Origin: Ignavibacteria bacterium RIFOXYB12_FULL_35_14
GTDB lineage: Bacteria; Bacteroidota; Ignavibacteria; Ignavibacteriales; Ignavibacteriaceae
Assembly (NCBI GenBank): GCA_001803045.1
Contig: MHAR01000015.1
Coordinates: 1 to 39,773 of the forward strand
Length of the DNA stretch: 39,773 bases
Direction: 5' to 3'
Positions 9,954 to 34,544 of the stretch are shown here, piece by piece (the stretch's first letter is position 1; the number at the start of each line of letters is the position of its first letter). Below the pieces are notes generated by a model. That model saw only the letters and a list, made by a program, of their open reading frames with translations. It searched no databases and was not told the origin of the DNA. Position numbers and translations under genes: made by a program.

Positions 9954-10006
9954 AAAAATCTCTTAATTCTAATTCATTATAAAGTATAATTGTTCTTTAA
10001 AATATT

Positions 10007-10167
10007 TTCTCCGAGTTGTTGAGTCTAAGTTCATAAAGAATATGATTCCTCAACCGATTTGTCTGCTACTTGGTAGATAGGGTAAGTTTGGAAATGAACT
10101 TGTCCCGCAATTAGCGGGATAAACCTGCCAGCCCCAATTTGTGTTGGGGACGCTTTGCAAAGGAGAG
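10007..10167 (+). ncRNA. Moco/Tuco-type riboswitch before the molybdenum cofactor operon
   Basis: This leader can fold as a P1 helix of TTCTCC (10007-10012) with GGAGAG (10162-10167), a P2 helix GTTGAG (10018-10023) with CTCAAC (10049-10054), a GGG (10080-10082) plus AAGTT/AACTT hairpin with GGAAATG in its loop, then TCCCG, a CCCCAA/TTGGGG hairpin (10132-10149) and GCAAAGGAGAG. The order GGG - purine-loop hairpin - TCCCG - AAAGG matches, as I remember it, the core of the molybdenum cofactor riboswitch upstream of E. coli moaA. The leader at 30831-30950 has the same CTCCGAG...CCGAT...AAAGGAGAG frame. Genes below are moaA, moaC, moeA and mobA, exactly the expected regulon. Family assignment is by eye; no covariance model was run. 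Confidence 0.68.
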
Positions 10168-10208
10168 TCTAACTAAAACGATTTAACATAATTATATTAT
10201 TTTCACTT

Positions 10209-10320: not shown

Positions 10321-10638
10321 ATGTCACAAGTACCAAAACGATTTCAGAAATTCGTTGATGATTATCCACAAGTTGCAAAAGCTTATGAAGAGCTTGGCGA
10401 TGCTGTTCACACTGCCGGTCCGCTAAATGAAAAAACACGAGCACTCATCAAACTTGCAATCTCAACCGGTGCACGTCTTGAAGGCGCAGTTCACTCGCAT
10501 GCGCGCAAAGCAATTAAAGCCGGTTGTACTGCTGAAGAAATGCGGCATGTTGCTTTACTTGCTCTCCCAACAATTGGTCTTCCTTCGATGATGGCTGCAC
10601 TAAGCTGGGTTGATGATATTGTCGAGAATAAAAAATGA
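10321..10638 (+). CDS. Carboxymuconolactone decarboxylase (CMD/AhpD-like) family protein
   Basis: A 105-residue all-helical protein with the CMD-fold pattern LNEKTRALIKLAISTGARLEGAVHSHARKAIKAGCTAEEMRHVALLALPTIGLPSMMAAL. The redox-active CxxC of true AhpD alkylhydroperoxidases is missing: the position reads AVHSHARKA, so a peroxidase role is unlikely, although the Glu/His pair found in this superfamily is kept. A strong AAAGGAG ribosome binding site precedes the ATG. It is the first gene behind the riboswitch and overlaps the next by 4 bases (ATGA), so it is probably translationally coupled to the transporter. Function in cofactor synthesis is unknown. Confidence 0.88.
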   Translation: MSQVPKRFQKFVDDYPQVAKAYEELGDAVHTAGPLNEKTRALIKLAISTGARLEGAVHSHARKAIKAGCTAEEMRHVALLALPTIGLPSMMAALSWVDDIVENKK

Positions 10639-11159
10639 TTGAGATTTTAGCAAAGCTCTTTTTGGCATTTATTAAGGTTGGTTCATTTTCATTCGGCGGA
10701 GCTTATTCACTTATTCCATTGATTGAAAAAGAAGTAGTCAATAATCATCAATGGCTGAGTCATGATGAGTTTTTACGAGTGCTTGGAATGGTAGAAATAT
10801 TTCCCGGTGCAATTTCGATTAAGTTTGCAACATACACCGGTTACAAAACCGCCGGCATTTTAGGAGCAATTGCAGCTAATCTTGGAAATATTTTCACGCC
10901 GGCAATCTTGATTATATTTAGCACCTACATCTATTCCATCTATGAAAAAAATGTTTTGGTGACCAAAGCTTTTGATGGTATTAAGTATGCAGTCATCGGA
11001 ATGATTGCAGCAATTATGTATCAGTATGCTTTGAAGAATGGAAATCATTGGCAGGAGTTTGTTTTGTTGGCTATTGGCGCCGCGCTGATTATCTTTTTTA
11101 AACTACATCCGGCGTATGTGGTAATCATTGCTGCAATAATTGGGATAGTGATTCTGTGA
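10635..11159 (+). CDS. Single-domain CHR (chromate transporter family) protein
   Basis: A 174-residue membrane protein holding one CHR domain: FIKVGSFSFGGAYSLIPLIEKEVV, then the VEIFPGAISIKFATYTGYKTAGILGAIAANLGNIFTPAILI segment with the conserved Pro-Gly and Gly-rich helix. Long ChrA proteins carry two such domains, and short ones normally occur as adjacent pairs; here only one is seen. It overlaps the CMD-like gene (ATGA) and moaA (GTGA) at its two ends, so it belongs to the Moco operon. The family exports or exchanges oxyanions (chromate, sulfate), so molybdate or tungstate is a reasonable but unproven substrate. Confidence 0.88.
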   Translation: MIEILAKLFLAFIKVGSFSFGGAYSLIPLIEKEVVNNHQWLSHDEFLRVLGMVEIFPGAISIKFATYTGYKTAGILGAIAANLGNIFTPAILIIFSTYIYSIYEKNVLVTKAFDGIKYAVIGMIAAIMYQYALKNGNHWQEFVLLAIGAALIIFFKLHPAYVVIIAAIIGIVIL

Positions 11160-12151
11160 AGCTAGTTGATAACTTCAATCGCATTCATGATTATATTCGC
11201 ATCTCACTGATTGATAAATGCGATCTGAAATGCATCTATTGTAATCCAACAAATTCATTCGCACATTTTGACTCGAACAATGCAATACTTTCGTATGAAG
11301 AATTATACCAACTGATAAAAATCCTCGTAAGAGATTTAGAAGTAAAGAAGGTTCGTTTTACCGGCGGCGAACCATTAATAAGAAAAGATATATTAAAATT
11401 TTTTCGAATTATTGCTTCGTTAAAGCATAAATACGATTTTGAAATTGGAATTACTACTAACGGTACTCAATTGATTGAAAAACTCGAATCGCTTTATCAA
11501 TTTGGTGTTGACCGCTTAAACATTAGCCTGGATACATTAAGCAAAAGTAAATGTATTGTAATTACCGGTAAAGATTATTTTGATCAGACCCTTGCTTCAA
11601 TTCACAAAGCAATGTCAATTGGTTTTAAAAGCGTTAAAGTAAATGCGGTCATCATGAAAAATATAAATGATGATGAGTTGAATAGCTTTGTTGATTACTT
11701 CAAAGATTACCCAATCACACTTAGATTTATTGAATACATGCCTTTTACCGGAAATCAATGGGATGATTCAAAGTTTATGAGTTGGGAAGAAATGAAAACA
11801 GAAATAGACAGCAAGTATTTATTAGCAGCAATACGCAGCGATGGGAAAGTTTCTAAAGACTATTTTGTTAAAGGAACGAATCTTAAAATTGGTTTCATCA
11901 GTTCCATTTCAAATCATTTTTGTGATAGCTGCAATCGGTTACGCATCACAGCATCAGGTAGGATGAAAAATTGTCTGTTTTCTTCTGCTTCCAATGTGAG
12001 CTTAAAAAAATATCTTTCCGATAAATCAATTTCAGATGAGAACATTGCAGAAATCATTAAAAATTCCTTACAAAAAAAATGGTTCAAGCATCCAAGTGTA
12101 GATGAGCTGGTACAGCTTAAACAAAATAATATGATGAGTATAGGTGGATGA
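11156..12151 (+). CDS. moaA: GTP 3',8-cyclase (molybdenum cofactor biosynthesis protein A)
   Basis: MoaA is the radical SAM enzyme that rearranges GTP to 3',8-cyclo-7,8-dihydro-GTP, the first step of molybdopterin synthesis. The 331-residue protein has the N-terminal cluster C22-x3-C26-x2-C29 (KCDLKCIYC), RFTGGEPLIRKD, TTNGTQL and RLNISLDTL, and the C-terminal second cluster FCDSCNRLRITASGRMKNC. It ends in Gly-Gly, as needed for catalysis in this family. The start is GTG at 11156, overlapping the stop of the CHR gene as GTGA; the stop overlaps moaC as ATGA. Confidence 0.96.
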   Translation: MKLVDNFNRIHDYIRISLIDKCDLKCIYCNPTNSFAHFDSNNAILSYEELYQLIKILVRDLEVKKVRFTGGEPLIRKDILKFFRIIASLKHKYDFEIGITTNGTQLIEKLESLYQFGVDRLNISLDTLSKSKCIVITGKDYFDQTLASIHKAMSIGFKSVKVNAVIMKNINDDELNSFVDYFKDYPITLRFIEYMPFTGNQWDDSKFMSWEEMKTEIDSKYLLAAIRSDGKVSKDYFVKGTNLKIGFISSISNHFCDSCNRLRITASGRMKNCLFSSASNVSLKKYLSDKSISDENIAEIIKNSLQKKWFKHPSVDELVQLKQNNMMSIGG

Positions 12152-12624
12152 AAAAGAAATTATCGCATATCAACGGCATAGGAAAAGCAACAATGGTTGA
12201 TGTTTCCGATAAAGAGACAACTACTCGCAGTGCAGAAGCTTATGCTGAAGTAAAAGTGTCAGAAGAGATTTTTAAGGCAATTAAAACCAACACTGTCAAA
12301 AAAGGCGATGTGCTTTCAATTGCGAAGTTTGCGGGAATTCAAGCCGCCAAGAAAACAAGCGAGGTGATTCCACTTTGTCACAACATTTTCATTTCAAAAA
12401 TTGATGTTGAATTACGACTTAATTCTAAAAACAAAACTGTTGAAATAAAATCATTTGCAAAAACAACAGCGCAAACCGGAATCGAGATGGAAGCTTTAAC
12501 AGCAGTCTCAGTTGCTGCTTTGACCGTGTACGATATGTGCAAAGCCATTGATAAATCAATGGTAATTGGTGAAGTAAAATTACTAAGCAAAGCTGGAGGC
12601 AAAAGTGGAAAATATCGATTATAA
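12148..12624 (+). CDS. moaC: Cyclic pyranopterin monophosphate synthase
   Basis: MoaC converts the MoaA product into cyclic pyranopterin monophosphate. At 158 residues it has the usual family length. Diagnostic segments are SHINGIGKATMVDVSDKETT at the N-terminus, KKGDVLSIAKFAGIQAAKKTSEVIPLCHNIFISK with the catalytic-region His, GIEMEALTAVSVAALTVYDMCKAIDK, and the C-terminal LLSKAGGKSGKY. It overlaps moaA by 4 bases, consistent with coupled expression of the two enzymes that act in sequence. Confidence 0.97.
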   Translation: MKKKLSHINGIGKATMVDVSDKETTTRSAEAYAEVKVSEEIFKAIKTNTVKKGDVLSIAKFAGIQAAKKTSEVIPLCHNIFISKIDVELRLNSKNKTVEIKSFAKTTAQTGIEMEALTAVSVAALTVYDMCKAIDKSMVIGEVKLLSKAGGKSGKYRL

Positions 12625-12675
12625 AATTCATTATGATAGATCTATTTTTTGTAATAAAATAGGAGAAGACAATTG

Positions 12676-12789
12676 AACGCAGATTTCGCTGATTAGGCAG
12701 ATTTTTAAATCAAAATCAAAAAAATAATTATGAGTAAACTTGAAGAAATAATCAGAGTAAATCCGCTCAATCTGAGCAATCTGTGTTCT
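12676..12789. repeat. REP-like imperfect palindromic element between a ribosome binding site and the MOSC gene
   Basis: The left end GAACGCAGATT (12675-12685) is the near-reverse complement of the right end AATCTGTGTTC (12778-12788), and the inner parts (GCTGATTAGGCAG / ATCCGCTCAATCTGAG) continue the pairing imperfectly over about 114 bases. ATTG stands on both sides (12672-12675 and 12790-12793) as a possible target duplication. The sequence style resembles short non-coding palindromes common in this bacterial group. It separates AGGAG (12661-12665) from the MOSC reading frame. Confidence 0.6.
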
Positions 12790-13257
12790 ATTGCGATTGG
12801 GAAAGTTGTGGCGATTTCGATAAGTAAGAAAAAAGGAATTCCCAAATCCAATGTTCAATATGCAAAGTTGATTGAGAATTTTGGAATTGAAGGTGATATT
12901 CATGCTGGCAATTGGCACCGACAAGTAAGTTTCCTTGCGTTGGAAAGTATTGAAAAGATGCGTGAAAAAGGATTGCATAATCTTCGGCCCGGTGCGTTCG
13001 CGGAAAACATTACGACAGAAATTTTAACTCTGCCAGAATTACAAATTGGCACGCGAATAAAAATTGGCGACCAAGCTGAGTTGGAGATAACCCAAATCGG
13101 TAAAGAATGTCATAGTAAATGCGCTATATTTTTTAAGGTTGGTGATTGCGTTATGCCAAGAGAAGGAATATTTGCCGTAGTACTTAAAGGCGGAAAAATT
13201 TTTGTGGGTGATAGAATTGAGCTTGATGATTCTCTGATTCAAAGAAATCCTAGTTAG
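12730..13257 (+). CDS. MOSC domain protein
   Basis: The open frame gives 175 residues. From about residue 22 it matches the MOSC domain of the molybdenum cofactor sulfurase C-terminal family: IGKVVAISISKKKGIPK, then GIEGDIHAGNWHRQVSFLALESIEKM, RPGAFAENITTEIL and the conserved Cys region IGKECHSKCAIF. MOSC proteins bind or transfer Moco or sulfur. The first ~21 codons fall inside a palindromic element, the ATG at 12730 has no ribosome binding site, and a good AGGAG lies 65 bases upstream beyond the element. So the true start is uncertain (GTG at 12808 is another option) and expression may be altered. Confidence 0.85.
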   Translation: MSKLEEIIRVNPLNLSNLCSIAIGKVVAISISKKKGIPKSNVQYAKLIENFGIEGDIHAGNWHRQVSFLALESIEKMREKGLHNLRPGAFAENITTEILTLPELQIGTRIKIGDQAELEITQIGKECHSKCAIFFKVGDCVMPREGIFAVVLKGGKIFVGDRIELDDSLIQRNPS

Positions 13258-13260
13258 TCC

Positions 13261-13344
13261 TTGTCAAGAACTTTGTGTTCCTTCGTGGTACAGAAAACAT
13301 TTAACCACAAAGTATCACACAAAGAAGTACGAAGTTTTTGACAA
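13261..13344. repeat. Imperfect palindromic repeat between the MOSC gene and moeA
   Basis: TTGTCAA (13261-13267) is matched by TTGACAA (13338-13344), and the inner stretch CTTTGTG..CTTCGTGGT pairs with ACCACAAAG..CACACAAAG. The 84-base element could form a long hairpin, has no coding capacity and is unlike the element at 12676. Sequences of the form CTTTGTG...GTGGT...ACCAC...CACAAAG are common dispersed palindromes, so this is probably a mobile or relict element within the operon. Confidence 0.6.
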
Positions 13345-13388
13345 ACAAAAATTGAAAAATGAATTTAAATTATATTATAAATTAACGT

Positions 13389-14591
13389 ATGGTAACTTAT
13401 TCCGAGGCCCTAAAAATAATTCGTACTGAATGTAATAAAATTATACTTCACACCGAGGAAGTTGATTTGCTCGATTCTATTAATCAAATATTGGCTGAAG
13501 ATGTATTTGCCGATGTTGATTTACCGCCGTTTGATAATTCGGCGATGGATGGATACGCTGTAAAATTTAGTAAGAGAAATGAGTGGAATATAATTGGAGA
13601 AATTTCTGCTGGCAATTATTCACCTCTCAACCTTTCTGAAAATGATGCTGTATTAATTACAACTGGAAGCAAAATTCCAGTCAATGCTGATACAGTCCTT
13701 CCTATTGAAGATGTAGAAGTTCAAGGAAATCTTCTTAAGTTAAAAGCTGATACCTTTTACAAAGAAGGAATGAACATAAGGCCAAAAGGAAATGATTTAC
13801 GGAAAGATCAAATAGCTGTTCATTGTTTTACCAAAATTGATTCTAAAGTAATTGCGGCATTAGCAAGCTGCGGCAAAGATAAAGTAAAAGTGTTTTGTAA
13901 GCTGAGAGCGGCAATATTAGCAACCGGTGACGAGTTAATTCCGATCAATGAAATTCCGGCTGATGATAAACTTCGTGTGTCGAATACATATTCACTTTAT
14001 ACTGTGGTAAAAGAAATGAATCATACGCCAATTATGCTTGGCTTCATTAAAGATGACAAAGAAATTATTCGTAAAAAAATAAAAGCAGCATTTGAAATGG
14101 ATATTGATATGCTGATTACAACCGGAGGTGTTTCTGTTGGTAAATATGATTTTTTGAAAGAAATATTTGAAGAGGAAGGAGTTAAAGAAAAATTTTGGAA
14201 AGTGAACATTAAACCTGGAAAACCAATTTATTTTGGTATTTGTGAAAAAAATGAAAAAAGAATTCTCGTATTCGGTCTGCCGGGAAATCCGGTTTCATCA
14301 TTAGTTAATTTTTACATCTTCATAAAACCGGCAATTGATTATTTATTTCATCGAAATTATTTAAATAACATCACTGCAATTTTGCAAGATAATTTGAAGA
14401 AGAAGGATAGCAAGCTTCATTTTTCGCGAGGGATTCTTTACGAGGATAATGGTGAGTGGAAAGTAACATCAAAATTCACCCAATCATCCGGCGATCTTGT
14501 TGAGATGAGTCGGGCTAATTGTTTAATCGTCATCGAAGAAGAAAGAGAAAATCCTACAAAAGGAGAAAAGGTAAAATGTATTCGGATATAA
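13389..14591 (+). CDS. moeA: Molybdopterin molybdenumtransferase MoeA
   Basis: MoeA inserts molybdate into adenylylated molybdopterin. The 400-residue protein has the family length and order: an N-terminal domain with ADVDLPPFDNSAMDGYAVKF, TTGSKIPVNADTVLPIEDV and NIRPKGNDLRKDQ, a MogA-like domain with ATGDELIPINE, TTGGVSVGKYDFLKE and KPGKPIYFG, then VFGLPGNPVSSLVNFYIFIKP and the C-terminal beta barrel. It starts 132 bases after the MOSC gene, with a palindrome between, and no clear ribosome binding site is seen before the ATG. The last 16 bases overlap mobA. Confidence 0.96.
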   Translation: MVTYSEALKIIRTECNKIILHTEEVDLLDSINQILAEDVFADVDLPPFDNSAMDGYAVKFSKRNEWNIIGEISAGNYSPLNLSENDAVLITTGSKIPVNADTVLPIEDVEVQGNLLKLKADTFYKEGMNIRPKGNDLRKDQIAVHCFTKIDSKVIAALASCGKDKVKVFCKLRAAILATGDELIPINEIPADDKLRVSNTYSLYTVVKEMNHTPIMLGFIKDDKEIIRKKIKAAFEMDIDMLITTGGVSVGKYDFLKEIFEEEGVKEKFWKVNIKPGKPIYFGICEKNEKRILVFGLPGNPVSSLVNFYIFIKPAIDYLFHRNYLNNITAILQDNLKKKDSKLHFSRGILYEDNGEWKVTSKFTQSSGDLVEMSRANCLIVIEEERENPTKGEKVKCIRI

Positions 14592-15172
14592 CCGGTATTA
14601 TACTTGCGGGTGGTAAAAGCTCACGAATGGGAGTGAACAAATCATTTTTAAGGTTGGGAAATCAGACAATTATTGAAAGAATAACGGATTTGATGAATTC
14701 TCTTTTCAAGGAGGTAATTATAATTACTAATACTCCTGAGGAATATGAATTTCTTAATCGTTCTTTACATAAAGATATTTACATAGGATATGGACCATTA
14801 GGCGGAATTCATTCGGGTTTAATATATTCAAAAACGGAAAAAAATTTTGTCATTTCGTGCGATGTTCCGCGGATGACGAAGGAAATGATAGAATATATCG
14901 TCAACTTTCAAACACATAAACCAATTGTCTTTTGCCAAGCAGGAGGTTACCATCAGCCATTAGTTGGTATTTATAAAAAGAAAATTATCGTTGAGATTGA
15001 AAAATTTTTATCAGATAATACCAAAACAGCCGATAAATCTTTCCATCATTTTCTTAAAGATGTCAATGCTGAGCTAATTGATCCTAAAGATTTACCGTTT
15101 TATAAAGACGAGATCTTCTTTAATGTGAACAATCCCGATGATTATTCACTCATATTATCTGAATATTATTAA
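14576..15172 (+). CDS. mobA: Molybdenum cofactor guanylyltransferase MobA
   Basis: MobA attaches GMP to Mo-molybdopterin to make the bis-MGD cofactor needed by NarG and NapA. The start is the ATG at 14576 behind AGGAGAAAAGG, overlapping the end of moeA; the frame is open further upstream. The 198-residue protein has the nucleotide motif GIILAGGKSSRMGVNKSFL, GYGPLGGIHSGL, the metal-binding NFVISCDVPRM and the late HQPLVGIY and NVNNPDDY. A second, frameshifted copy lies on the minus strand at 21287-21864 and is clearly diverged, so it is not a recent duplication. Confidence 0.95.
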   Translation: MYSDITGIILAGGKSSRMGVNKSFLRLGNQTIIERITDLMNSLFKEVIIITNTPEEYEFLNRSLHKDIYIGYGPLGGIHSGLIYSKTEKNFVISCDVPRMTKEMIEYIVNFQTHKPIVFCQAGGYHQPLVGIYKKKIIVEIEKFLSDNTKTADKSFHHFLKDVNAELIDPKDLPFYKDEIFFNVNNPDDYSLILSEYY

Positions 15173-20655: not shown

Positions 20656-21273
20656 ATGGAAAAATTGAACCGTAAGCTTTTACATTCAAATATTGTCTAT
20701 ACTTTTATTTTCGGAGTTCTGTGGGGACTGCTTGAAATAATAGCAAATGAATTCTTGGTCCCAAACAATATTTTCATAAAGGGTTTAATATTTTCTTTTA
20801 TTGCGGTCTTTGTTTTGATATTCTCAAAAAAAATAATTGATTATAAGTTCTCATTATTAATTATTGCAACAATAGCTCTGTTGATGATTTTTGCTTCAAG
20901 AGGATATTCTCTAAACATCATGATAGCAATATTTTCAGAAGCACTTATTGCCGAAATAATTTTTCTCTCTTTCAAATTTAGATTAACGACCACGATGGCA
21001 ATAGGTGCATTGATTTTTTTGTATTCTTTTATACATGGATTGATATTTCACGGTTCCTTACCCGGCAGTTATATTGTTTACCTGTATAATAATTTATTCT
21101 CTGATTTAACCGGAATTTCAGCTTCTAAAAATGCTTATTTTTTAGTGCTTTTATTTTTTTGGTTTGTTAGCTTAGCTATTGGTATTGCTACAGGCTGGTT
21201 GAGTTTTAGGATTGTAAACGCGACTCAAAAAAGAGTAAAGGAGAGTATTGAGCATTATATACTTTCGGAATAA
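20656..21273 (+). CDS. Integral membrane protein, ECF S-component-like, paralogue of the gene at 31006
   Basis: About 205 residues with six hydrophobic helices. The frame is open from 20581, but the ATG at 20656 follows TAGGTAGG and gives a normal N-terminus. It shares with the protein at 31006 the motifs FGxLWGLxEI near the N-terminus, a helix with AxIAEIxF, the LIHGLIFHG / LIHSLIMQG segment and GxxxGWxxxxxxN near the C-terminus. The size and hydrophobic pattern resemble substrate-binding S components of ECF transporters, but no family is firmly recognised. It is next to the second mobA, and its paralogue sits behind a Moco-type riboswitch, so a molybdenum- or pterin-related transport role is suggested. 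Confidence 0.7.
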   Translation: MEKLNRKLLHSNIVYTFIFGVLWGLLEIIANEFLVPNNIFIKGLIFSFIAVFVLIFSKKIIDYKFSLLIIATIALLMIFASRGYSLNIMIAIFSEALIAEIIFLSFKFRLTTTMAIGALIFLYSFIHGLIFHGSLPGSYIVYLYNNLFSDLTGISASKNAYFLVLLFFWFVSLAIGIATGWLSFRIVNATQKRVKESIEHYILSE

Positions 21274-21286
21274 AAAACTCTCTTTT

Positions 21287-21864
21287 TTATTGGAATGAGG
21301 GGAACTGTTCTTTTAAAAATTCATAGTCTTCAGCTCTATTAAGATTAAAGAAAATTTCTTGAGGGAATCTTTCAGCATCTAATATTTCTGCATCTATTTT
21401 TTTAATAAAATTTTGAACTCTTAAACTATTGGTCTTTAATAAATCTTCAAGAATTGGTAAACAATTCTTAGTGTAATTACCGCAAAGGAATTGTAATTGG
21501 TCACCTTTTTTATAAATAACTGCAGGCCGATTAGATCTATATTTTGAAATAAATTCAACAGCATCAATTGAAATTAATGGAAGATCACAGGAGATAATAA
21601 AATTTTTATGGGTATTTGAATAAAAAATCCAGAGTGAATTCCTGCTAAAGGTCCCAACCCGGGGAAGATATCCTTATAAATTTTTAATCCCATAAACTGA
21701 TAATCTTCAGGTGTATTTGAAATAATCATTATCTCATTACATGATTGACTAATTCTTTCATATATAATTTCTATTATCTTTTTACCGGATAAGTCAAGTA
21801 AAGCTTTATTCTGTCCAATCCTAGAACTTTTCCCGCCTGCTAAAATTATTCCTGTTATTGTCAT
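21287..21864 (-). pseudogene. mobA: Second mobA (molybdenum cofactor guanylyltransferase), frameshifted
   Basis: Read on the minus strand, the frame from 21864 gives ITGIILAGGKSSRIGQNKALL and GLGPLAGIHSGFF, then shifts out of frame. The other reading continues YSNTHKNFIISCDLPLISI and runs to a stop at 21287, ending FFNLNRAEDYEFLKEQ, all matching MobA. One base is missing in an A/T run of six at 21622-21627 (GGATTTTTTATTC on the minus strand); a seventh T restores a full frame of about 192 residues. Both halves keep their motifs, so the break is recent, or a sequencing error, or a slippage site. The intact mobA at 14576 could cover a loss. Confidence 0.88.
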
Positions 21865-26611: not shown

Positions 26612-28876
26612 ATGTCAATTTCAAGAAGAAATTTTTTAAAAGCTTCCGCACTTACAGCCGCGGCAGCAGCAATTGGAGTTGAACCTTTGCACAAAAGCAG
26701 TGTATTGGCAGCAGCCGTTCAGGAAAGCGTTGTCTGGTATAAATCTGTATGCCGCTTTTGCGGTGTTGGATGCGGCGTTATGCTGGGGGTTAAAGATGGA
26801 AAACCGTTCGGGATAAAAGGCGATAAAGAATGTCCGGTAAATAAAGGTCTTCTTTGCGTTAAAGGTTTTTATCTTCACAGAATGATAACTGCAAAGAATC
26901 GCCTCCTGCATCCTCTGGTTAGGAAAAATGGGAAGCTTGAAAAAGCTTCCTGGGATGAGGCTATGGATTTAGTTGCCTCGAGATTTAAAGAAATCTTAGA
27001 AAAAGATGGTCCTAATGCCCTTGCTTATTATGGATCCGGACAGGCACAAACAGAGGAGACATATCTTGCCCAACGTTTGTTCAAAGGTTATATCGGAACA
27101 AATAACGCTGATGGTAACCCGAGACTTTGTATGGCAAGTGCAGTGGGTGGATACACTACTTCTTTTGGTGCTGATGAACCAATCGGAACTTACAAGGATA
27201 TCGAACATTGCAATTTGTTTCTGATTATCGGATCAAATACTGCTGAAGCACATCCTGTTATATTTGACCTGTTAGTTCAAAGGAAAAAAGACAGTCCTTC
27301 TTGTAAAATCATTTTCATTGATCCAAGAAAAACTCCGACAAACAGAATAGTTGATCTTCATCTTCAGGTTAAACCGGGTTACGATCTTGCTATTATGCAT
27401 GCAATTGCCCGTCAGTTAATTAAAGATGGTTATACAGATGAGCAGTTTATTAAGGATAGTGTTAATTTTAGTAATGGTAAAGATCCAATTACCTATGATG
27501 ATTATAAAGCATTCCTGGAAAAATACACACCCGAATATGCGGCTGAACAAGCCGATATAAACCCTGCTGATATTGTTAAAGCCGCAAGAATGTTTGGTGA
27601 ATCACCAACTGCAATGACTATGTGGTGTATGGGGGTTAATCAAAGAGTTGCAGGAGTATTCCTTAATAATCTAATTCATAACATTCATCTTCTCACAGGA
27701 AAATTAGGTAAACCTGGTTGTGATTCATTCTCATTAACCGGTCAACCTAATGCCTGTGGTGGTGTGCGTGAGGCCGGGGGACTATGTCATATTCTCCCGG
27801 GACACCGTTTGGTTGCCAATGAACAGCACAGAAAAGTTGTTGCTGAAATCTGGAAAACTTCTCCGGATAAAATTCAGCCAACTCCCGGTAAACATACTGT
27901 TGCGATGTTCGGAGCTGCTGCAAAAGGTGAAATTAAAGGGATGTATATTCTTTGCACTAATCCTGCACAATCACTTCCTAATCTGAATAAGTATATCCCT
28001 GGTATGAAGGATACTTTCTTAGTTGTTGCAGAATCTTTCTATCCAACAGAAACATCAAAGATTGCCGATGTAGTATTGCCCGTTGCATTCTGGGGCGAGA
28101 AAGAAGGTGTTTATGGATGTACAGAAAGAAGATCGCAGCATCTTGCAAAAGCATTGAATCCTTCCGGTGAATCGCGCTGGGATGGTGATGTTATCGTAGA
28201 TCTTGCTAAACGAATGGGATATGGAAAAGGGTTCGAGCACTTTAAAGGTCCGGAAGATGTATGGAGTGAATATCAGAAAACAACTGCCGGTACTGATATG
28301 GATTTATCAGGTGCTACTTATGACAGACTCAAAAAAGTCAGAGGTCTCACTTGGCCTGTTCCTGATACAAGTCATCCGGGAACCTGGCATAGATTTACAG
28401 AAGGCGATCCATACTTCCCTAAAGATAAAGCCGGCAACAGAAGAATGTATTTCTATGCTAAACCTGATGGTAAGGCTGTTATATTTGCCCGCCCTGATAA
28501 AGGTCCTGAAGAACCTGTTTCTGCCGAATATCCGGTTGTGCTTACAACAGGCAGAATACTGGAGCAATGGCATACAATGACTATGACCGGACAAATTCCG
28601 GAGTTAGTGAGAGCTAATCCTGTTCCTTATGCTGAACTTAATCCGGATGATGCAAAATTATGGGGAATAAAAAACCGCGATAAGGTTAAAATAATTACAC
28701 GGCGTGGTTTACTAACTGTAAAAGCTAAAGTTATCGATCGTACTCGCAAAGGAACTATTTTTATTCCTTGGCATTGGCCTGAAAGTTTAACCAATATTCT
28801 TACTATCGACGCAGTGGATCCGGGATCATTCGAGCCTGAATATAAAGTGGCTGCGTGTCAAGTTGCAAAAGCATAA
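26612..28876 (+). CDS. napA: Periplasmic nitrate reductase catalytic subunit
   Basis: A 754-residue molybdopterin enzyme with a Tat signal (SRRNFLKA at 4-11). The [4Fe-4S] ligands are C47, C50, C54 and C82, with K84 as the conserved electron-relay Lys. The molybdenum ligand is probably C173 in NPRLCMASAV, the Cys that marks NapA rather than formate dehydrogenase (Sec/Cys in another context) or arsenate enzymes. Other NapA segments are WCMGVNQRVAGVFLNN, LTGQPNACGGVREAGGL and TTGRILEQWHTMTMTG. Its length fits the monomeric, Desulfovibrio-type NapA (about 755) rather than the longer E. coli enzyme. It reduces nitrate to nitrite in the periplasm using bis-MGD, made by the moa/moe/mob genes of the window. 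Confidence 0.93.
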   Translation: MSISRRNFLKASALTAAAAAIGVEPLHKSSVLAAAVQESVVWYKSVCRFCGVGCGVMLGVKDGKPFGIKGDKECPVNKGLLCVKGFYLHRMITAKNRLLHPLVRKNGKLEKASWDEAMDLVASRFKEILEKDGPNALAYYGSGQAQTEETYLAQRLFKGYIGTNNADGNPRLCMASAVGGYTTSFGADEPIGTYKDIEHCNLFLIIGSNTAEAHPVIFDLLVQRKKDSPSCKIIFIDPRKTPTNRIVDLHLQVKPGYDLAIMHAIARQLIKDGYTDEQFIKDSVNFSNGKDPITYDDYKAFLEKYTPEYAAEQADINPADIVKAARMFGESPTAMTMWCMGVNQRVAGVFLNNLIHNIHLLTGKLGKPGCDSFSLTGQPNACGGVREAGGLCHILPGHRLVANEQHRKVVAEIWKTSPDKIQPTPGKHTVAMFGAAAKGEIKGMYILCTNPAQSLPNLNKYIPGMKDTFLVVAESFYPTETSKIADVVLPVAFWGEKEGVYGCTERRSQHLAKALNPSGESRWDGDVIVDLAKRMGYGKGFEHFKGPEDVWSEYQKTTAGTDMDLSGATYDRLKKVRGLTWPVPDTSHPGTWHRFTEGDPYFPKDKAGNRRMYFYAKPDGKAVIFARPDKGPEEPVSAEYPVVLTTGRILEQWHTMTMTGQIPELVRANPVPYAELNPDDAKLWGIKNRDKVKIITRRGLLTVKAKVIDRTRKGTIFIPWHWPESLTNILTIDAVDPGSFEPEYKVAACQVAKA

Positions 28877-28883
28877 TATAATT

Positions 28884-28908
28884 GGGTGACTGTGTTTAGC
28901 AGTCACCC
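28884..28908 (+). other. Intercistronic hairpin between napA and napD
   Basis: GGGTGACTG (28884-28892) pairs perfectly with CAGTCACCC (28900-28908) around a 7-base loop. The downstream TGCATTTTAAAA is a weak T tract. It may lower expression of napD onward or stabilise napA mRNA rather than end transcription. Confidence 0.6.
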
Positions 28909-28932
28909 TGCATTTTAAAAGGGAAGCTTAGT

Positions 28933-29190
28933 ATGATAATAGCAAGCATGATTGTTACAACGCAAAAGGGTATGGCAGAAGAAGTTGCACTGCAATTAAA
29001 ACGAGTGCCCAATCTTACTACTCACGGTGTGTACAAAGGTGATAATATTATAGTTGTAATGGAAGCTGAAAAAGAAGAAGAATTAGTGAACATGTCTCGT
29101 TATTTAATGAATGAGTTTGAAGATATACTGGGAACATACCCAACCTTTATGGCTTCTGAAGATGAGGTAGATGAAATAGAAGAAAAGTGA
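28933..29190 (+). CDS. napD: NapA maturation chaperone NapD
   Basis: An 85-residue soluble protein with the NapD pattern: IIASMIVTTQKGMAEEVALQLKRVPNLTTHGVYKGDNIIVVMEAE and a C-terminal acidic tail. NapD binds the Tat signal of NapA and delays export until the cofactor is inserted. It starts 42 bases after napA, with a hairpin between, and overlaps napG by 4 bases (GTGA). Confidence 0.9.
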   Translation: MIIASMIVTTQKGMAEEVALQLKRVPNLTTHGVYKGDNIIVVMEAEKEEELVNMSRYLMNEFEDILGTYPTFMASEDEVDEIEEK

Positions 29191-29705
29191 TATCGCTTTT
29201 AAAATTTTTACAAAGCATAATAACGGGAAAAACTCCTTTAAGACCTCCCGGTGCTCTGCGGGAAGAAGAGTTTTTAAAGCGCTGCATTAAGTGTAACAAG
29301 TGTGCACAAATTTGTCCATACTTCAGCATACGGATAGCACACGTGGAGTGGGGAAGAAGCATGGGAACACCGATGATATTTGCACGCGATATTCCGTGTT
29401 ATGTTTGTATGAAATGTACACCTGTTTGTCCTACAGGTGCATTGCAAAATGATGTGGTTGAAAAAGAAAATGTAAGGATGGGCATCGCAAAAATCAATGA
29501 AGAGAAGTGTCTGCCTTATTTAGATGTAATATGCCGCGCCTGTTTTGAAAACTGCCCGATATTCAGAGAGGCAATAATTCTTGTAGATGAGTTGCTTCCT
29601 AAAGTGATTGATGAAAAATGTATTGGTTGCGGAATTTGTGAAAGAGTTTGTCCCGTTGAAGGTTCCGCAATTATTGTTTACAGTAAAGAAGAAATTACGG
29701 TTTAA
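29187..29705 (+). CDS. napG: Ferredoxin-type protein NapG (four [4Fe-4S] clusters)
   Basis: 172 residues with four Cys clusters: C33-x2-C36-x2-C39-x3-C43, C71-x2-C74-x2-C77-x3-C81, a third at C108 and C116-x2-C119-x3-C123, and C145-x2-C148-x2-C151-x3-C155. The order and the AHVEWGRSMGTPMIFARDIPCYVC segment are typical of NapG. It passes electrons from NapH toward periplasmic Nap proteins. Unlike E. coli NapG there is no twin-Arg signal; the N-terminus is only MISLLKFLQSIITG, so export is unclear. The start is GTG at 29187. Confidence 0.9.
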   Translation: MISLLKFLQSIITGKTPLRPPGALREEEFLKRCIKCNKCAQICPYFSIRIAHVEWGRSMGTPMIFARDIPCYVCMKCTPVCPTGALQNDVVEKENVRMGIAKINEEKCLPYLDVICRACFENCPIFREAIILVDELLPKVIDEKCIGCGICERVCPVEGSAIIVYSKEEITV

Positions 29706-30620
29706 ATGCCCCGGGTAAAGAGAAATAAGTTTTATAATAAATTAAATACTTATAGAAAAAGTGTACAGCTATTTTCTCTGGCTTTTTTGGTGGCAGTTCC
29801 GATTCTGGTTGTCAACGGGATCTATTCCATTATTGGTAATCTTTATTCAATTACAATTTTTGGTGTTGATATTGTTGATCCGGCAATGGCACTACAGACA
29901 ACAATATTATCAAGAGAGTTAATCGAAGTACTTATTATTGGAATAATACTTCCTGTTCTGCTTGCGTTGATATTCGGAAAAGTTTTTTGCAGCTGGATGT
30001 GCCCGTTCAATACCATCTCGGAGTATTGGCAGAAACTAACAGCTAAACTTTTTAGAAAGAGATACAGAAAAATTAAGTTGCAGGTGAAAGATGAAAATCC
30101 GAACCCGGTTATTTTCTGGAGTATTTTAATTTCATTTTTTGTCCTCAGCATCATATTGGATTTCCCGATGATTACTTTCCTTTCTGCACCGGGAATCATC
30201 TCTTCCGAAATATCTCACTTTATAATGGGAATGGGATTTGGTTTAGAGCTGCTAATTGTTTTGATGATAATCTTTATTGAGGGAATATTATTCAAAAGGT
30301 ACTGGTGTAAATTTGTTTGTCCGGTCGGCGGGGTTCTCTCAATTTTCAGAGTTAAAAGAACAATGCATTTACACTATAATTCAGATTTATGTTCTTGTGC
30401 AGCCAGATCAGAGCCGTGCAGTTACAGTTGCCCTCTCAATTTGTCACCAAAGAGCAAAAACATTTATCCGTTCTGTTTCAACTGCGGCGAATGTATTAGA
30501 ATTTGCGAGAAAACTGGAAGCGGTGCTTTATCATTTAGCTTCGGCACAAATAATATGTCATATAAAAAGGGAATGAAAAATTCTCATAAAGAAGAAATTG
30601 AATTTTCAATTAAGGAATAA
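29706..30620 (+). CDS. napH: Quinol dehydrogenase membrane component NapH
   Basis: A 304-residue polyferredoxin membrane protein with about four helices. Typical motifs are [15 protein letters not shown] and [11 protein letters not shown] (the CxxxCP pair) and the C-terminal clusters [16 protein letters not shown] and [13 protein letters not shown]. NapH takes electrons from menaquinol and passes them to NapG. It abuts napG with no gap. It is distinct from the NapH-like protein at 15878, which has different ferredoxin spacing and an extra helix at the C-terminus. Confidence 0.92.
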
Positions 30621-30622
30621 AA

Positions 30623-30802
30623 ATGTTTGCAAATTTTGGAACGACAGAAATACTAATCATCCTTTTTGTAATATTGCTTTTATTCGGCGGAAAGAAGATA
30701 CCTGAACTTGCCAAAGGTTTTGGAAAAGGAATCCGCCAGTTCAAGAACGAAATTAAAGATGTTAAAGAAGAACTTGATATCAGAGAGGATATTAAAAAAT
30801 AA
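30623..30802 (+). CDS. tatA: Twin-arginine translocase subunit TatA/E
   Basis: A 59-residue protein with the TatA layout: N-terminal membrane helix ([17 protein letters not shown]), the hinge and amphipathic helix [20 protein letters not shown], and a charged tail ([15 protein letters not shown]). TatA forms the pore through which folded Tat proteins pass. It starts 3 bases after napH, so it belongs to the nap operon, whose catalytic subunit carries a Tat signal. tatB and tatC are not in the window. Confidence 0.92.
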
Positions 30803-30830
30803 CGGACTAATTAAGTAGTAAAATAATTAA

Positions 30831-30950
30831 TTCTCCGAGCTTTATTCCCTAAAGATCAGTTTAGATTTATGGGAAGAAAGCCGATGGGTTTGATGAGAAA
30901 TCATCAAGCCTCCCACGTCCTGATATATCAGGACAAATTGGAAAGGAGAG
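30831..30950 (+). ncRNA. Moco/Tuco-type riboswitch before the TonB / membrane-transport operon
   Basis: TTCTCC (30831-30836) can pair with GGAGAG (30945-30950) as P1. Inside are P2 TTCCC/GGGAA (30845-30849 with 30871-30875), CCGAT (30881-30885), GGG with a TTGATGA-GAAA-TCATCAA hairpin (30886-30908), CCTCCC (30909-30914), a perfect GTCCTGAT/ATCAGGAC hairpin (30917-30934) and TTGGAAAGG (30938-30946). The core GGG - hairpin - GCCTCCC - TGGAAAGG matches the E. coli moaA molybdenum cofactor riboswitch as I recall it. It also shares CTCCGAG, CCGAT and AAAGGAGAG with the leader at 10007 that precedes moaA. Identification is by eye and by this pairing of leaders. Confidence 0.68.
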
Positions 30951-30966
30951 GTTGAACTTGAAGGTT

Positions 30967-30995
30967 AAACCTCATCTTTACGATGAGGTTTTTTT
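30967..30995 (+). terminator. Terminator of the second Moco-type riboswitch, with a visible antiterminator
   Basis: AAACCTCATC (30967-30976) pairs with GATGAGGTTT (30982-30991), followed by a T tract to 30995. GAGGTT at 30948-30953 can instead pair with AACCTC (30968-30973), and this antiterminator shares bases with the P1 strand GGAGAG. Folding of P1 would therefore favour the terminator: an OFF switch when ligand is bound. Confidence 0.8.
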
Positions 30996-31005
30996 GTTTG
31001 AGATA

Positions 31006-31605
31006 ATGATGAAAAAAGAAATAGATCAAAACGAATTTATATCTACCGCACTATTTGGGGCTTTGTGGGGTTTGATTGAAATTTCTCTAGGTACAATTTT
31101 ACACGCATCAAAAATTCCCTTCAGAGGAACCGTATTAACGATTATTGCAGTTGTAATAATTACTATCTCACGATCATTTATAAATTATAAGGGATCAATA
31201 ATTGCCATCAGTTCTGTAGCAGCAACTCTTAAATTAATTACACTGCCGGGATTCAACATAACTCCATTCATCGCAATAATGATGCAGGGTACAATTGCGG
31301 AGATTGTTTTTTCGTTCTTCACTTACAATTTAGTCTCATCCTTGTTTACTGGTTCGTTAATACTTCTTTATACATTAATTCACAGCTTAATTATGCAGGG
31401 AATATTCTTTGGGTTTGGTATTTACAATGTTTATCTGGAAATACTGAACAGCATTGGCAAAGCAATTAATTATGAGGGAGAAATATCTTTAATATTAATT
31501 CCGGTTATAGTTTTTCTATATATTTTTATTGGTGCCAGTGCGGGATGGTTCGGCTATGCAACAGCCAACCGGACAAGAGAAATTTTACAGGAAAGTGTCG
31601 TATGA
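31006..31605 (+). CDS. Integral membrane protein, ECF S-component-like, under riboswitch control
   Basis: About 199 residues with six hydrophobic helices. The frame is open from 30952, but that start lies upstream of the terminator; ATG at 31006 or 31009 is the first beyond it. Motifs shared with the paralogue at 20656: FGALWGLIEI, a helix with GTIAEIVFSFF, LIHSLIMQG and GASAGWFGYATAN. The size and helix pattern resemble small substrate-binding membrane components of ECF transporters, but no named family is certain. It overlaps the next gene by 4 bases (ATGA). With a Moco-type riboswitch above and a TonB receptor below, transport of molybdenum, tungsten or a pterin cofactor precursor is the best guess. 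Confidence 0.7.
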   Translation: MMKKEIDQNEFISTALFGALWGLIEISLGTILHASKIPFRGTVLTIIAVVIITISRSFINYKGSIIAISSVAATLKLITLPGFNITPFIAIMMQGTIAEIVFSFFTYNLVSSLFTGSLILLYTLIHSLIMQGIFFGFGIYNVYLEILNSIGKAINYEGEISLILIPVIVFLYIFIGASAGWFGYATANRTREILQESVV

Positions 31606-32153
31606 AGAATAAATATTTAGTACCCATAATTTTCATTGTAGCACTTTTTATTCCACTTGATTTTTCATTTTATTTTTTTCCCCCGGCAATTTTGTATTTG
31701 ATGTTCTTAGATATTCATCTTTTCTGCTTCTTAAGAAGAATATCTTTTCTTCTCTTTGTCATAATTCTACTTATTGTTCAACCAATGGTTATCGGTGAAA
31801 AGGATTTTCTTTTGCTCGGAATAAAATTTTCAACAAGCGGGTTTTATAACGGATTGATAATGATTTTTAGAGCGGTGGTTATGATTCCTGCAATTAATTA
31901 TTTATCAAAAACTGCCGGTAGAAAAAAGCTTCAAAGTTTATTTGCAAAACTAGGATTGAAAAATTATGATGAAATACTTGATCATTCACAAAAATTGTTC
32001 CCTTTATTAAAAGAGAAAACTAAGGAATTTTTTACAAAGGCAGAACGTAAAAAAATTTTTAATCCTATTGAGTTATCAGCACAGCTATTAGCTTTTTTAA
32101 TTAAAGCCGCTCATTCATATACAGCAAAAACTAAAGAAGAGAATGTTTTATGA
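31602..32153 (+). CDS. Small membrane protein, possibly ECF T-component-like
   Basis: About 183 residues starting at ATG 31602, overlapping the upstream stop as ATGA. The N-terminal 110 residues hold about four hydrophobic helices (YLVPIIFIVALFIPL, PAILYLMFLDIHLFC, RISFLLFVIILLIVQP, GFYNGLIMIFRAVVMIPAI). They are followed by a soluble Lys-rich part with LFAKLGLKNYDEILDHSQKLFPLLKEKTKEF, reminiscent of the LGLP..L segment of EcfT/CbiQ proteins. The clear ARG coupling motifs of EcfT are not seen. No ECF ATPase gene is next to it. It overlaps the TonB receptor gene (ATGA). Confidence 0.6.
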   Translation: MKNKYLVPIIFIVALFIPLDFSFYFFPPAILYLMFLDIHLFCFLRRISFLLFVIILLIVQPMVIGEKDFLLLGIKFSTSGFYNGLIMIFRAVVMIPAINYLSKTAGRKKLQSLFAKLGLKNYDEILDHSQKLFPLLKEKTKEFFTKAERKKIFNPIELSAQLLAFLIKAAHSYTAKTKEENVL

Positions 32154-34069
32154 AAAATATAATTACAATAATAGTTGTTGTATCGTCACTGATCTTTGCT
32201 CAGAAGAAAGATACTTTAATGCAATACAATCTTGGTGAAATTGAAGTAACAGCGAGAAAAGGAAATCAATTAAACTCTGTTGAAATTTCTCAAAAAGAAT
32301 TTCAGATGCAGAATTCATTCAGCGCTTTTGATGCTTTGCAATTCAGTCCCGGTGTATATGCTTCGGTTTCAGGAAAGAATGAAGCCCAACTATCAATCCG
32401 TGGATTTGATCAAAGACAAATATCTGTAATGATTGATGGAGCACCTGTTTACATTCCATACGATGGCAGTTTTGATCTGAATGCAATTCAGTTAGCAGGA
32501 TTCAATAAAATATCAATTTCTAAAAACGTTTCTTCTATTCTTTACGGTCCTAATTCTATGGGAGGCAGCATAAACCTAATTTCTGAATATCCTGTTAAAA
32601 ATTTTTCTGCAAAAGTTAATTATCAGAAAGGGAGCAGCCAGAATTTAAATATAGGATTCAACGGGATTTTATCCGCGTTTTATTTTAATGCAGCTTTTGG
32701 TTACCACAAATCGAATGGCTTTGCATTGCCATCAAGTTTTTCTGCTGCCGCTAACGAAGATGGAGAAAGGCGAGAAAACAGCGGTTATGATTCTAAAGCC
32801 AGTATGCTCAAACTTGGTACAAAGATTTTTGATTTTTTAGATGTGGCTTTTGCGTATAATCATATAGATAATGAAAAGGATGTTCCGGTAAATATTTATA
32901 CAATAAATCCGCGGTATTGGAGATATAGTGATTGGAATAAATCACTTGCAAACCTGATGTTTAATTCGGTTATCTCTTCGAACTTTACTATAAGAGGAAA
33001 TATTTTTTATGACAAGTACACGAATGTGCTTGATTCTTATGATGATGCAACCTTTACAACTCAAACAAAGAAATATGCTTTCCATTCAACGTATGATGAT
33101 TACTCCTATGGCTTAAATTTATCATCCTATATTTCATCTGAAATTTTACCTTTAACAAAAATTATTTTTTTGTACAAAAGAGACTCACACAAAGAGCAGA
33201 GCAATTATGGACAGCCCTATAAAAAGTTTGAAGCTGAAATTTTTACAATTGGAGTTGAAGAAGAATTTTCAATTGTTGATAATTTTAAAATAGTAGCTGG
33301 AATCAGTTATGATAAAATGAATCCGCTCTTCGCGGAGAATTCTCTGCTTCGTCCGGCAAGTTCATCACTCCACGGAAATTTGGGATTAAACTTTAACTTA
33401 AATGAAAATTTTCTGGTGTATATGATTGCTTCTAAAAAATCCAGGTTCCCGACATTAAAAGAATTCTATTCAGAACTTCTGGGAAGCAATAAACCTAATT
33501 CTGACCTGGCTCCAGAGCAAAGTTACAACTATGAAGCAGGGGCTTCCACAGCGTTCCTTGATTTTTATGTTGCTGTTTCCTTTTTCTTCAGCGAGGTAAA
33601 GGATCTTATACAGATAGTTTCGCTCGGAGATAATATTCGCCAATATCAAAACATAAATAAGGCGGCGCTAAAAGGAACAGAAGTTGAGTTGAAATATAAA
33701 TTCTCAGTTTTTAATGCGGCACTTAACTACACATATCTTTCTGCTAAAAATATCACAGAGGATGCTGAACTTCCAAACCGTCCGGAACACGTTCTTAATT
33801 TACTACTGAATAAAAATTACGATTTTGGTTTTGAATGGAATACAGAAGCATCATTTATTTCCAACCAATATTCATTTGATTCCGATTCACGAGAATTGAA
33901 GCGACTTCCGGATTATCTTATCATTGGTTTACGAATCGCTCAAAAATTTTTTTCAGATTATAAATTTTATTTTAGGATTAATAATATCACCGATAAATAT
34001 TATGAAACCGAGTATGGTTTTCCCCAACCGGGACGAGCGTATTTTGTTGGAATCCTGGCCGAATGGTAA
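32150..34069 (+). CDS. TonB-dependent outer-membrane receptor
   Basis: A 639-residue receptor with a signal peptide (MKNIITIIVVVSSLIFAQ). A plug domain follows: LGEIEVTARKG, FSAFDALQFSPGVYASVSGKNEAQLSIRGFDQRQISVMIDGAPVY and SKNVSSILYGPNSMGGSINL. The rest is a beta barrel ending in RINNITDKYYETEYGFPQPGRAYFVGILAEW with a terminal aromatic residue. The family imports metal chelates, cobalamin, sugars and other bulky ligands with TonB energy. It is co-expressed with the riboswitch-controlled membrane proteins (ATGA overlap). The substrate is not readable from the sequence, but the leader suggests a molybdenum/tungsten complex or pterin. TonB/ExbBD are not in the window. Confidence 0.92.
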   Translation: MKNIITIIVVVSSLIFAQKKDTLMQYNLGEIEVTARKGNQLNSVEISQKEFQMQNSFSAFDALQFSPGVYASVSGKNEAQLSIRGFDQRQISVMIDGAPVYIPYDGSFDLNAIQLAGFNKISISKNVSSILYGPNSMGGSINLISEYPVKNFSAKVNYQKGSSQNLNIGFNGILSAFYFNAAFGYHKSNGFALPSSFSAAANEDGERRENSGYDSKASMLKLGTKIFDFLDVAFAYNHIDNEKDVPVNIYTINPRYWRYSDWNKSLANLMFNSVISSNFTIRGNIFYDKYTNVLDSYDDATFTTQTKKYAFHSTYDDYSYGLNLSSYISSEILPLTKIIFLYKRDSHKEQSNYGQPYKKFEAEIFTIGVEEEFSIVDNFKIVAGISYDKMNPLFAENSLLRPASSSLHGNLGLNFNLNENFLVYMIASKKSRFPTLKEFYSELLGSNKPNSDLAPEQSYNYEAGASTAFLDFYVAVSFFFSEVKDLIQIVSLGDNIRQYQNINKAALKGTEVELKYKFSVFNAALNYTYLSAKNITEDAELPNRPEHVLNLLLNKNYDFGFEWNTEASFISNQYSFDSDSRELKRLPDYLIIGLRIAQKFFSDYKFYFRINNITDKYYETEYGFPQPGRAYFVGILAEW

Positions 34070-34544
34070 AAGGATTCTAATAATTACAGGTAAGGTAAAC
34101 TCTGGTAAATCATCGAAGTTGGAGAAGATTATTCACCAACTGAACTCTGCCGGAAAGAATGTTAACGGATTCATCAGCAGAGGAATTTTTTCCGGGTCGA
34201 ATAAAACGGGTTATAACCTAGTTAATATTTCTACCGGTGCCGAATATCATTTAGCTTCAACTTCTCCTAAAAAAAATTTTAATCTTAAGCAAGGCAGCTT
34301 CTACTTCAATGAGGAAGTTTTTAATTACATATATGATAACGCAAAAGAAAATTTAACGGCGGATATAATCGCATTAGATGAAATTGGTCATCTAGAACTA
34401 CAGAACAAAGGATTCTATCCTTTCTTTAAGATTTGTCTTAAAGATTTCGAAGGAAAATTACTCATTGTTGTTCGGAACAGTTTGTTGGAAAGTGTATTAA
34501 GAAAATTTAGAATTCATAATGATAGCGTTATTGAAAAAAGTTAG
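34014..34544 (+). CDS. P-loop NTPase (THEP1 / DUF265-like)
   Basis: A P-loop protein with RILIITGKVNSGKSSKLEKIIHQL (Walker A), VNGFISRGIFSGSNKTGYNL and DIIALDEIGHLELQNKGFYP (Walker B), matching the small THEP1-type nucleoside-triphosphatases. The start is uncertain: the frame is open upstream inside the TonB gene. ATG at 34014 or TTG at 34047 are reasonable, and either overlaps the receptor by 20-55 bases, so coupling is likely. It ends with a short basic tail. Whether it energises the membrane proteins or handles the imported ligand is not known. P-loop proteins also occur in Moco pathways (MobB), which fits the riboswitch but does not prove it. Confidence 0.82.
   Translation: MVFPNRDERILLESWPNGKRILIITGKVNSGKSSKLEKIIHQLNSAGKNVNGFISRGIFSGSNKTGYNLVNISTGAEYHLASTSPKKNFNLKQGSFYFNEEVFNYIYDNAKENLTADIIALDEIGHLELQNKGFYPFFKICLKDFEGKLLIVVRNSLLESVLRKFRIHNDSVIEKS

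Follow-up and report, generated by a model that had tools for sequence, protein, structure and literature searches.

A Moco-riboswitch-led operon with a TonB receptor and ECF-type components in an Ignavibacteria genome, a candidate uptake system for preformed molybdopterin cofactor

To our knowledge, no proven transporter is known for the molybdenum cofactor (Moco). Regulation of Moco supply by riboswitches of the RF01055 family is described for modABC and moa operons by Regulski et al. (PMC2408646). The same RNA family leads the four-gene operon considered here, located at 31009 to 34544 of a 39,773-nt stretch from Ignavibacteria bacterium RIFOXYB12_FULL_35_14 (contig MHAR01000015.1), hereafter the window, with all coordinates given on the forward strand. 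It differs from modABC and moa operons in comprising a putative uptake unit for both the outer and the inner membrane, and in occurring in genomes mostly devoid of moaA. The operon is probably an uptake and salvage system for preformed molybdopterin (MPT) cofactor, most likely in the form of Mo-molybdopterin (Mo-MPT, i.e., Moco).

Uptake of preformed Moco from other organisms is described for Caenorhabditis elegans, an animal, through its diet; that work calls membrane transport of Moco unknown even where uptake is proven, and relates the little that is known about cofactor movement between cells to the instability of Moco (PMC9793310). Searches of the open-licence literature revealed neither work on a Moco importer in bacteria nor any that connects a Moco riboswitch to a TonB receptor, and the subject is touched on in only two passing mentions. 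The genome report of Desulfitobacterium hafniense PCE-S mentions a "molybdopterin import cluster" in a single sentence, which gives no genes, so that the likeness lies in the name only (PMC4511579). Some outer-membrane proteins of the type 11 secretion system (T11SS) are suggested, in another paper, for cobalamin or molybdopterin uptake (PMC12282271). A riboswitch-led gene set in genomes that contain Moco enzymes without the synthesis pathway represents a candidate transporter and makes the question directly testable.

The riboswitch leader and the operon genes

Screening of the window against Rfam (cmscan at curated thresholds, 36 bits for RF01055) returns two aptamers of the Moco/tungsten cofactor (Tuco) type and no other match, and a whole-genome search of the same organism (G000; G and L numbers denote genomes and loci) finds no third copy. 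The aptamer preceding the operon lies at 30821..30964 (+), scores 70.2 bits (E 4.3e-15) and belongs to the variant without stem P3, the P3 columns being deleted in the alignment. The second, at 9997..10181 (+) with 53.5 bits (E 3.4e-10), stands ahead of the Moco synthesis operon. A first-pass annotation, made from the sequence alone, had proposed a Moco-type riboswitch and terminator before the four genes, together with control shared with the moaA operon on account of similar leaders; with both leaders over the cut-off of the same family, these proposals are borne out. A chance or misread leader is ruled out by the two matches over cut-off and by the recurrence in relatives described below.

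Between the aptamer and the first gene, an intrinsic terminator (30967..30995, +) is formed by a hairpin with a perfect 10-bp stem (30967-30991) and a T run; a terminator is also present 3' of the moaA-operon leader. A near-identical terminator with an AACCTC(A/G)TC stem is found in all nine operon leaders that exceed the RF01055 cut-off. The 5' terminator arm has an alternative pairing partner in the 3' strand of stem P1 of the aptamer (30945..30953, +; duplex −9.8 kcal/mol), which may thereby act as an antiterminator, the corresponding pairing reaching −7.0 to −13.7 kcal/mol across the nine leaders. Equally good pairing arises in 0 to 12 of 300 shuffles for seven leaders, and in 29/300 and 33/300 for the window leader and L022, respectively, where support is weaker. 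This arrangement fits an off switch in which ligand-bound P1 would free the terminator: at plentiful cofactor, the riboswitch would close P1, the terminator would form and the importer would be switched off.

The terminator is followed by four tightly packed genes on the same strand, with neighbour overlaps of 4, 4 and 23 bases. The first, S (31009..31605, +; ATG start at 31006 or 31009), encodes a protein of 198 residues with only weak family matches (PF09819 at 4e-4, below cut-off; Trep_Strep in 6 of the 9 aligned members), and a sequence search of solved structures found none for it. An AlphaFold (AF2) model derived from nine sequences reaches a predicted local distance difference test (pLDDT) score of 85.1. 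In VIA-align, its best match is 5edl (YkoE), with Z 15.9 and a root-mean-square deviation of 3.6 over 169 residues. Rows 2-12 of the same comparison are further S components of energy-coupling factor (ECF) transporters, including RibU, at Z 8.7-11.6; helical bundles can reach Z 13-14 through their common arrangement, unrelated rows begin at Z 8.3, and the fold assignment rests mainly on 5edl, which is mainly what stands clear of them. Foldseek by itself gives a weak result, with 5edl again as the best match (E 0.01). Judged by its modelled fold, S is an ECF-type substrate-binding component, in line with the S-component-like protein of the first-pass annotation.

The second gene, T (31602..32153, +; 183 residues), had been annotated merely as a second small membrane protein; the gene stands, and its identity can be refined to that of a distant ECF T (CbiQ/EcfT) component. 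TIGR02454 (CbiQ) is matched by 6 of 7 T members (best E 1.8e-6), the window member reaching E 0.002 and 17.9 bits against a cut-off of 111.8. PF02361 is matched by 5 of 7 members (best 0.0026), the window T not being among them. Sequence searches of solved structures gave no credible match for T, and its AF2 model (pLDDT 57.6) is too poor for a structure search.

The third gene (32150..34069, +; 639 residues) encodes the TonB-dependent outer-membrane receptor recognized at first pass, with plug (PF07715, 1.6e-18) and beta-barrel (PF00593, 7.8e-30) domains both over cut-off. Its nearest solved relative by family profile is BtuB (9.8e-31), followed by the colicin I receptor, and PqqU/YncD is matched at 2.2e-20. 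A cobalamin operon was considered and is ruled out: RF01055 is the only riboswitch family in the window, with no cobalamin riboswitch, and the receptor scores 121 bits against the cut-off of 599.7 of the TonB-B12 (BtuB) equivalog model. The fourth gene (~34047..34544, +; 165 residues, TTG start, exact start uncertain) likewise agrees with its earlier description as a THEP1-like P-loop NTPase. It matches NTPase_1 (PF03266) at 9.1e-22 and 78.1 bits against a cut-off of 23.9, Walker A and DEIG/DExG motifs are aligned in nine members, and the nearest solved structures are 1ye8 and 2i3b. Among the operon genes, to which this search was confined, no A component (EcfA) of the ATP-binding cassette (ABC) type is present; A subunits may be shared with other systems.

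Recurrence of the operon and loss of cofactor synthesis

A profile built from the S alignment yields 7 loci in genome contigs, all from Ignavibacteria-type or Bacteroidetes metagenome-assembled genomes. It was also searched against 296 genomes of the phylum and 164 genomes of the order, 55 of the latter being <90% complete or >5% contaminated. Operon-type S occurs in 10 distinct genomes of one order (G000, G212, G051, G220, G124, G421, G414, G413, G393 and G348). S, T and TonB genes are seen together in nine of them, the contig of G413 ending inside S, and the NTPase gene follows in four of the nine whole operons (own, G421, G212, G220). G296, with an S lacking the motif discussed below and no TonB gene seen on its 6.7-kb contig, was left out of the operon count. 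Directly ahead of S lies RF01055 in all ten genomes; the first-pass annotation had named a lack of RF01055 matches, or a different riboswitch before homologous operons, as results that would refute it, and neither is observed. Nine of these leaders exceed the cut-off (own and eight relatives), and that of G348 falls below it (34.2 bits, E 2.4e-6). Recurrence of this arrangement in nine further genomes indicates that it is not due to chance.

In the phylum sample, RF01055 is detected at E 0.001 in 15 of the 296 genomes, 13 of them over cut-off. Five of the 16 places lead to the S-T-TonB operon and ten to moaA, which in G074 lies ~2 kb further on; the weakest (G285, 30 bits) has neither within its 3-kb locus. 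Upstream of the operon, a nap operon (26612..30802, +) encodes a NapA-like Moco enzyme, NapD (PF03927, 6.7e-10), NapG, NapH and TatA. Nap genes occupy this position in 9 of the 10 operon genomes, the exception being G220, where a DMSO_red_II-type enzyme operon (over cut-off) with TatA is found instead.

MoaA, scored as present at E <= 1e-40 across the order, is found in 57 of the 164 genomes and absent from 107. Among the ten operon genomes, only G000 is positive; when G296 is included, 10 of 11 are without MoaA. Two genomes, G066 and G047, were scored as positive despite scores below the MoaA cut-off. Gene content was further inspected in a panel of 34 genomes, consisting of 27 order members of the phylum sample and 7 from outside the order chosen for a riboswitch or an S fusion. 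In G212, G051, G124 and G220, no MoaA match exceeds the cut-off, only weak radical-SAM matches being present, and neither MoaC nor MoaE was found. MoeA was not found in three of these four, where the sole gene matching PF00994, a profile meant to reveal MoeA that also matches CinA, is CinA; G051 retains a MoeA-like gene adjoining MobA. CinA exceeds its own cut-off for the ~420-residue PF00994 genes of G212, G124, G220 and G132, and its assignment in the remaining panel genomes rests on gene size and coverage. G132 contains NarG, MobA and a fusion of S with T, and is without MoaA, MoaC, MoaE and MoeA (only CinA). Since both G124 and G132 are single contigs, assembly gaps do not explain these losses.

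All four genomes nevertheless carry an enzyme of the dimethyl sulfoxide (DMSO) reductase family (NapA-type or DMSO_red_II) and a MobA-like gene of 65-109 bits. The cut-off of the MobA model TIGR02665 is reached in 0 of 34 panel genomes and 1 of 14 controls; the MobA calls rest on matches of 55-119 bits, and NCBIfam scans of six give MobA models as the best match, all under cut-off. ModA (TIGR01256) is matched in 6 of the 34 panel genomes and was found neither in G000 nor in these four relatives, in a search that did not extend to WtpA, TupA and ModB. Because only the last step, the addition of guanosine monophosphate (GMP) by MobA, is retained, the gene content points to Mo-MPT as the form that would be imported.

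The distribution of the S family is consistent with a demand for the cofactor, on statistics that ignore shared ancestry and with PF01568 as the marker of the DMSO reductase family, which the xanthine oxidase, sulfite oxidase and AOR families escape. Among MoaA-less members of the 27-genome order panel, an S-family gene is present in 9/9 genomes with PF01568 vs 2/6 without (Fisher p 0.011), or in 8/8 vs 2/6 (p 0.015) when G070, whose PF01568 match is weak (32 bits), is set aside. Of 18 order genomes with PF01568, the 16 without MoaE all carry S and the 2 with MoaE are without S (p 0.0065, post hoc); none of the 18 carries both MoaE and the S-family protein, and none is without either. This post hoc pattern would explain the importer in the own genome, which has MoaA and MoaC, with MoaE undetected. 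Over the whole order, S is found in 27/57 MoaA-positive vs 69/107 MoaA-negative genomes (p 0.046).

Proposed function and alternative cargoes

In the proposed mechanism, the TonB receptor would carry the cofactor across the outer membrane, the ECF-type S would bind it at the inner membrane, and S together with T would move it inside. The THEP1-like NTPase may supply energy, receive the cofactor or have another role, and MobA would then add GMP to give the form used by Nap/Nar-type enzymes. The computations show the riboswitch family and terminators, the protein families and the S fold, the recurrence and the missing genes; the substrate, the direction of transport, the energy source and the sense of the switch are proposed on this basis. 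With a preformed cofactor as the cargo, the riboswitch, the components for both membranes, the loss of synthesis genes and the persistence of MobA receive a common explanation.

Several observations weigh against this proposal. Moco is described, in the work on C. elegans, as unstable (PMC9793310). The loss of MoaA taken alone is not significant (1/10 operon genomes vs 56/154 positive, one-sided p 0.08) and is weak evidence because 107/164 order genomes are without this gene. The own genome contains MoaA, MoaC, MoeA-like and MobA-like genes and may therefore make Moco itself, with MoaE undetected. The MobA matches of the panel are all below the curated cut-off, and five of the nine operons have no NTPase gene. 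The MoaE/S rule fails in 3 of the 7 chosen genomes outside the order, G016 and G119 having both and G168 neither, and S also occurs in three genomes where PF01568 is not matched (G019, G047, G263). Finally, the P3-less aptamer type has a link to tungsten, which makes a tungsten form possible.

The first-pass annotation had named a molybdenum or tungsten complex or molybdopterin itself as the cargo; the preformed pterin cofactor fits the gene losses, and molybdate or tungstate fits less well. Import of molybdate or tungstate, either as free anions or in chelated form (with a molybdophore), in replacement of ModABC is unlikely. Some ECF systems transport metals, and the absence of ModA from the own genome and the four relatives would agree with such a role. 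Moco riboswitches are also known ahead of molybdate transporters (PMC2408646). Metal import would account for the riboswitch and for the lack of a ModA match, but leaves the need for it in MoaA-less genomes unexplained: nine of the ten operon genomes are without MoaA, and because the four tested have also lost MoaC and MoaE, imported metal could not become cofactor there. In addition, S is closest in fold to S components of the vitamin type.

A cargo consisting of the tungsten form (Tuco) or of metal-free MPT, instead of Mo-MPT, appears less likely still. Stem P3 marks one RF01055 subtype, linked to molybdenum rather than tungsten, and P3-less RNAs are linked to Tuco users by Regulski et al. 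(PMC2408646). Membership in RF01055 does not require P3. The stem is missing from all ten operon aptamers, the own and nine related leaders, and the moaA leader of the own genome (9997-10181) does have letters in the P3 region, which favours a tungsten or metal-free cargo. However, the other aligned moaA leaders from within the order (L003, L006, L010, L012, L014) are likewise without P3, in five of five cases, and the three aligned leaders with a P3-sized insert all come from outside the order, so that presence or absence of P3 may follow kinship here. Furthermore, the linked enzymes are of the Nap, Nar, PhsA-like and DMSO_red_II types, which are normally Mo enzymes, and the three MoeA-less genomes leave no known route for metal into bare MPT.

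Least probable is another cargo (e.g., another vitamin or haem) or a role in Moco-enzyme maturation that is merely co-switched with Moco demand, for which the receptor's proximity to BtuB, a substrate assignment based on genome distribution and S-T fusions adjoining Moco enzymes also in MoaA-carrying genomes such as the own can be adduced, and against which stand a distribution that, within the order, tracks Moco enzymes and Moco gene loss, and a TonB receptor without evident use in cytoplasmic maturation.

Returning to import of the preformed cofactor, a wider proposal can be put forward tentatively: Moco could be a vitamin for the carriers, imported by a TonB and ECF-type system under a switch that senses its own ligand, in which a non-ABC, THEP1-like NTPase would replace the ABC ATPases. 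Uptake of this kind predicts cofactor exchange in nitrate-reducing communities; such exchange is proposed on pathway grounds for anammox systems (PMC10116762).

The S family beyond the operon and comparison with known systems

S is fused to T in many genomes of the order, mostly in proteins of 320-380 residues, and hhalign relates the C-terminal half of eight such fusions to T (probability 77, E 2e-5). The NTPase gene overlaps or abuts the S-T fusion in 10 of 21 order loci, and some relatives combine the THEP1-like NTPase with S and T in a single polypeptide: such proteins of 557-582 residues, ordered S, T, NTPase, occur at L213 and L214 in the order and at L147 outside it (three domains by profile), with PF03266 over cut-off in the L213 and L214 chains. 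At L148, S and NTPase are seen. At L143-L146, outside the order, the NTPase comes first, followed by S; no T match was obtained there by profile, and the 14-17 kb retrieved around these loci contain none of the Moco genes in the reference set.

PhsA-like, Xdh or Nar genes or MobA accompany 13 of 23 order fusion loci, a count biased by L223-L226, picked because a PF01568 enzyme was known nearby, and 9 of 19 without these four. At L141 in the own genome (contig C30, 4299-9129), a fusion precedes same-strand xanthine-dehydrogenase-like genes by 56 bp. In 10 of the 17 order genomes compared, an S-family gene is found no more than 12 kb from MobA. No RF01055 match over cut-off is present at seven S-T fusion loci (L133, L135, L141, L142, L214, L216, L223); the riboswitch is thus seen only with the operon type. 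Inspection by eye shows ABC-type genes in the neighbourhood of some fusions (L140, L219).

A second member of the family in the window, S2 (20656..21273, +; 103.6 bits with the S profile), is a paralogue upstream of nap that lacks the LHxxxxPFxG motif, as do four S2-type copies tested in relatives; given this absence, S2 perhaps binds another ligand. It stands alone, flanked by genes for a multihaem cytochrome and a sensor kinase, with similar copies in G124, G051, G212, G348 and others, and is the S-family gene nearest to MobA in G000 and G212. Beside it, a second MobA-like gene (21323-21858, −) is matched in two separate pieces and looks broken.

The RF01055-led synthesis operon of the window (10321..15172, +) contains genes for CMD-family, CHR-family, MoaA, MoaC, MOSC, MoeA-like and MobA-like proteins. 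It opens with a CMD-family protein of 105 residues (10321-10638, +; PF02627), followed by a half-size protein of the chromate-transporter family CHR (10635-11159, +), a candidate molybdate/tungstate transporter. The CMD and CHR pair recurs in five related riboswitch-led loci. Of the 7 order loci with the riboswitch ahead of moa genes, all but that of G140 have a CMD-family gene after the riboswitch, and such a gene directly adjoins the fusion at 10 of the 31 fusion loci. Among the 12 MoaA-positive order genomes of the panel, 10, own included, give no match to MoaE (PF02391), for which an unrelated MPT synthase or MPT import are possibilities.

In comparison with known systems, the operon resembles ECF transporters with YkoE/RibU-type S components in its S fold and its CbiQ-related T. 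It differs from them in having no ABC ATPase among its genes, with a THEP1-like NTPase in 4 of 9 operons, and in its TonB receptor and newly proposed substrate; the THEP1-like partner may hint at a novel means of energizing ECF-type transport. PqqU (YncD), which imports pyrroloquinoline quinone, is alike in being a TonB system for a redox cofactor and differs in the cofactor and its control; we know of no ECF partner for it. BtuB under cobalamin riboswitches offers a further parallel, as a riboswitch-controlled TonB receptor for a large cofactor, from which the present operon is distinguished by a Moco riboswitch and by an ECF-type inner-membrane part in place of BtuCDF.

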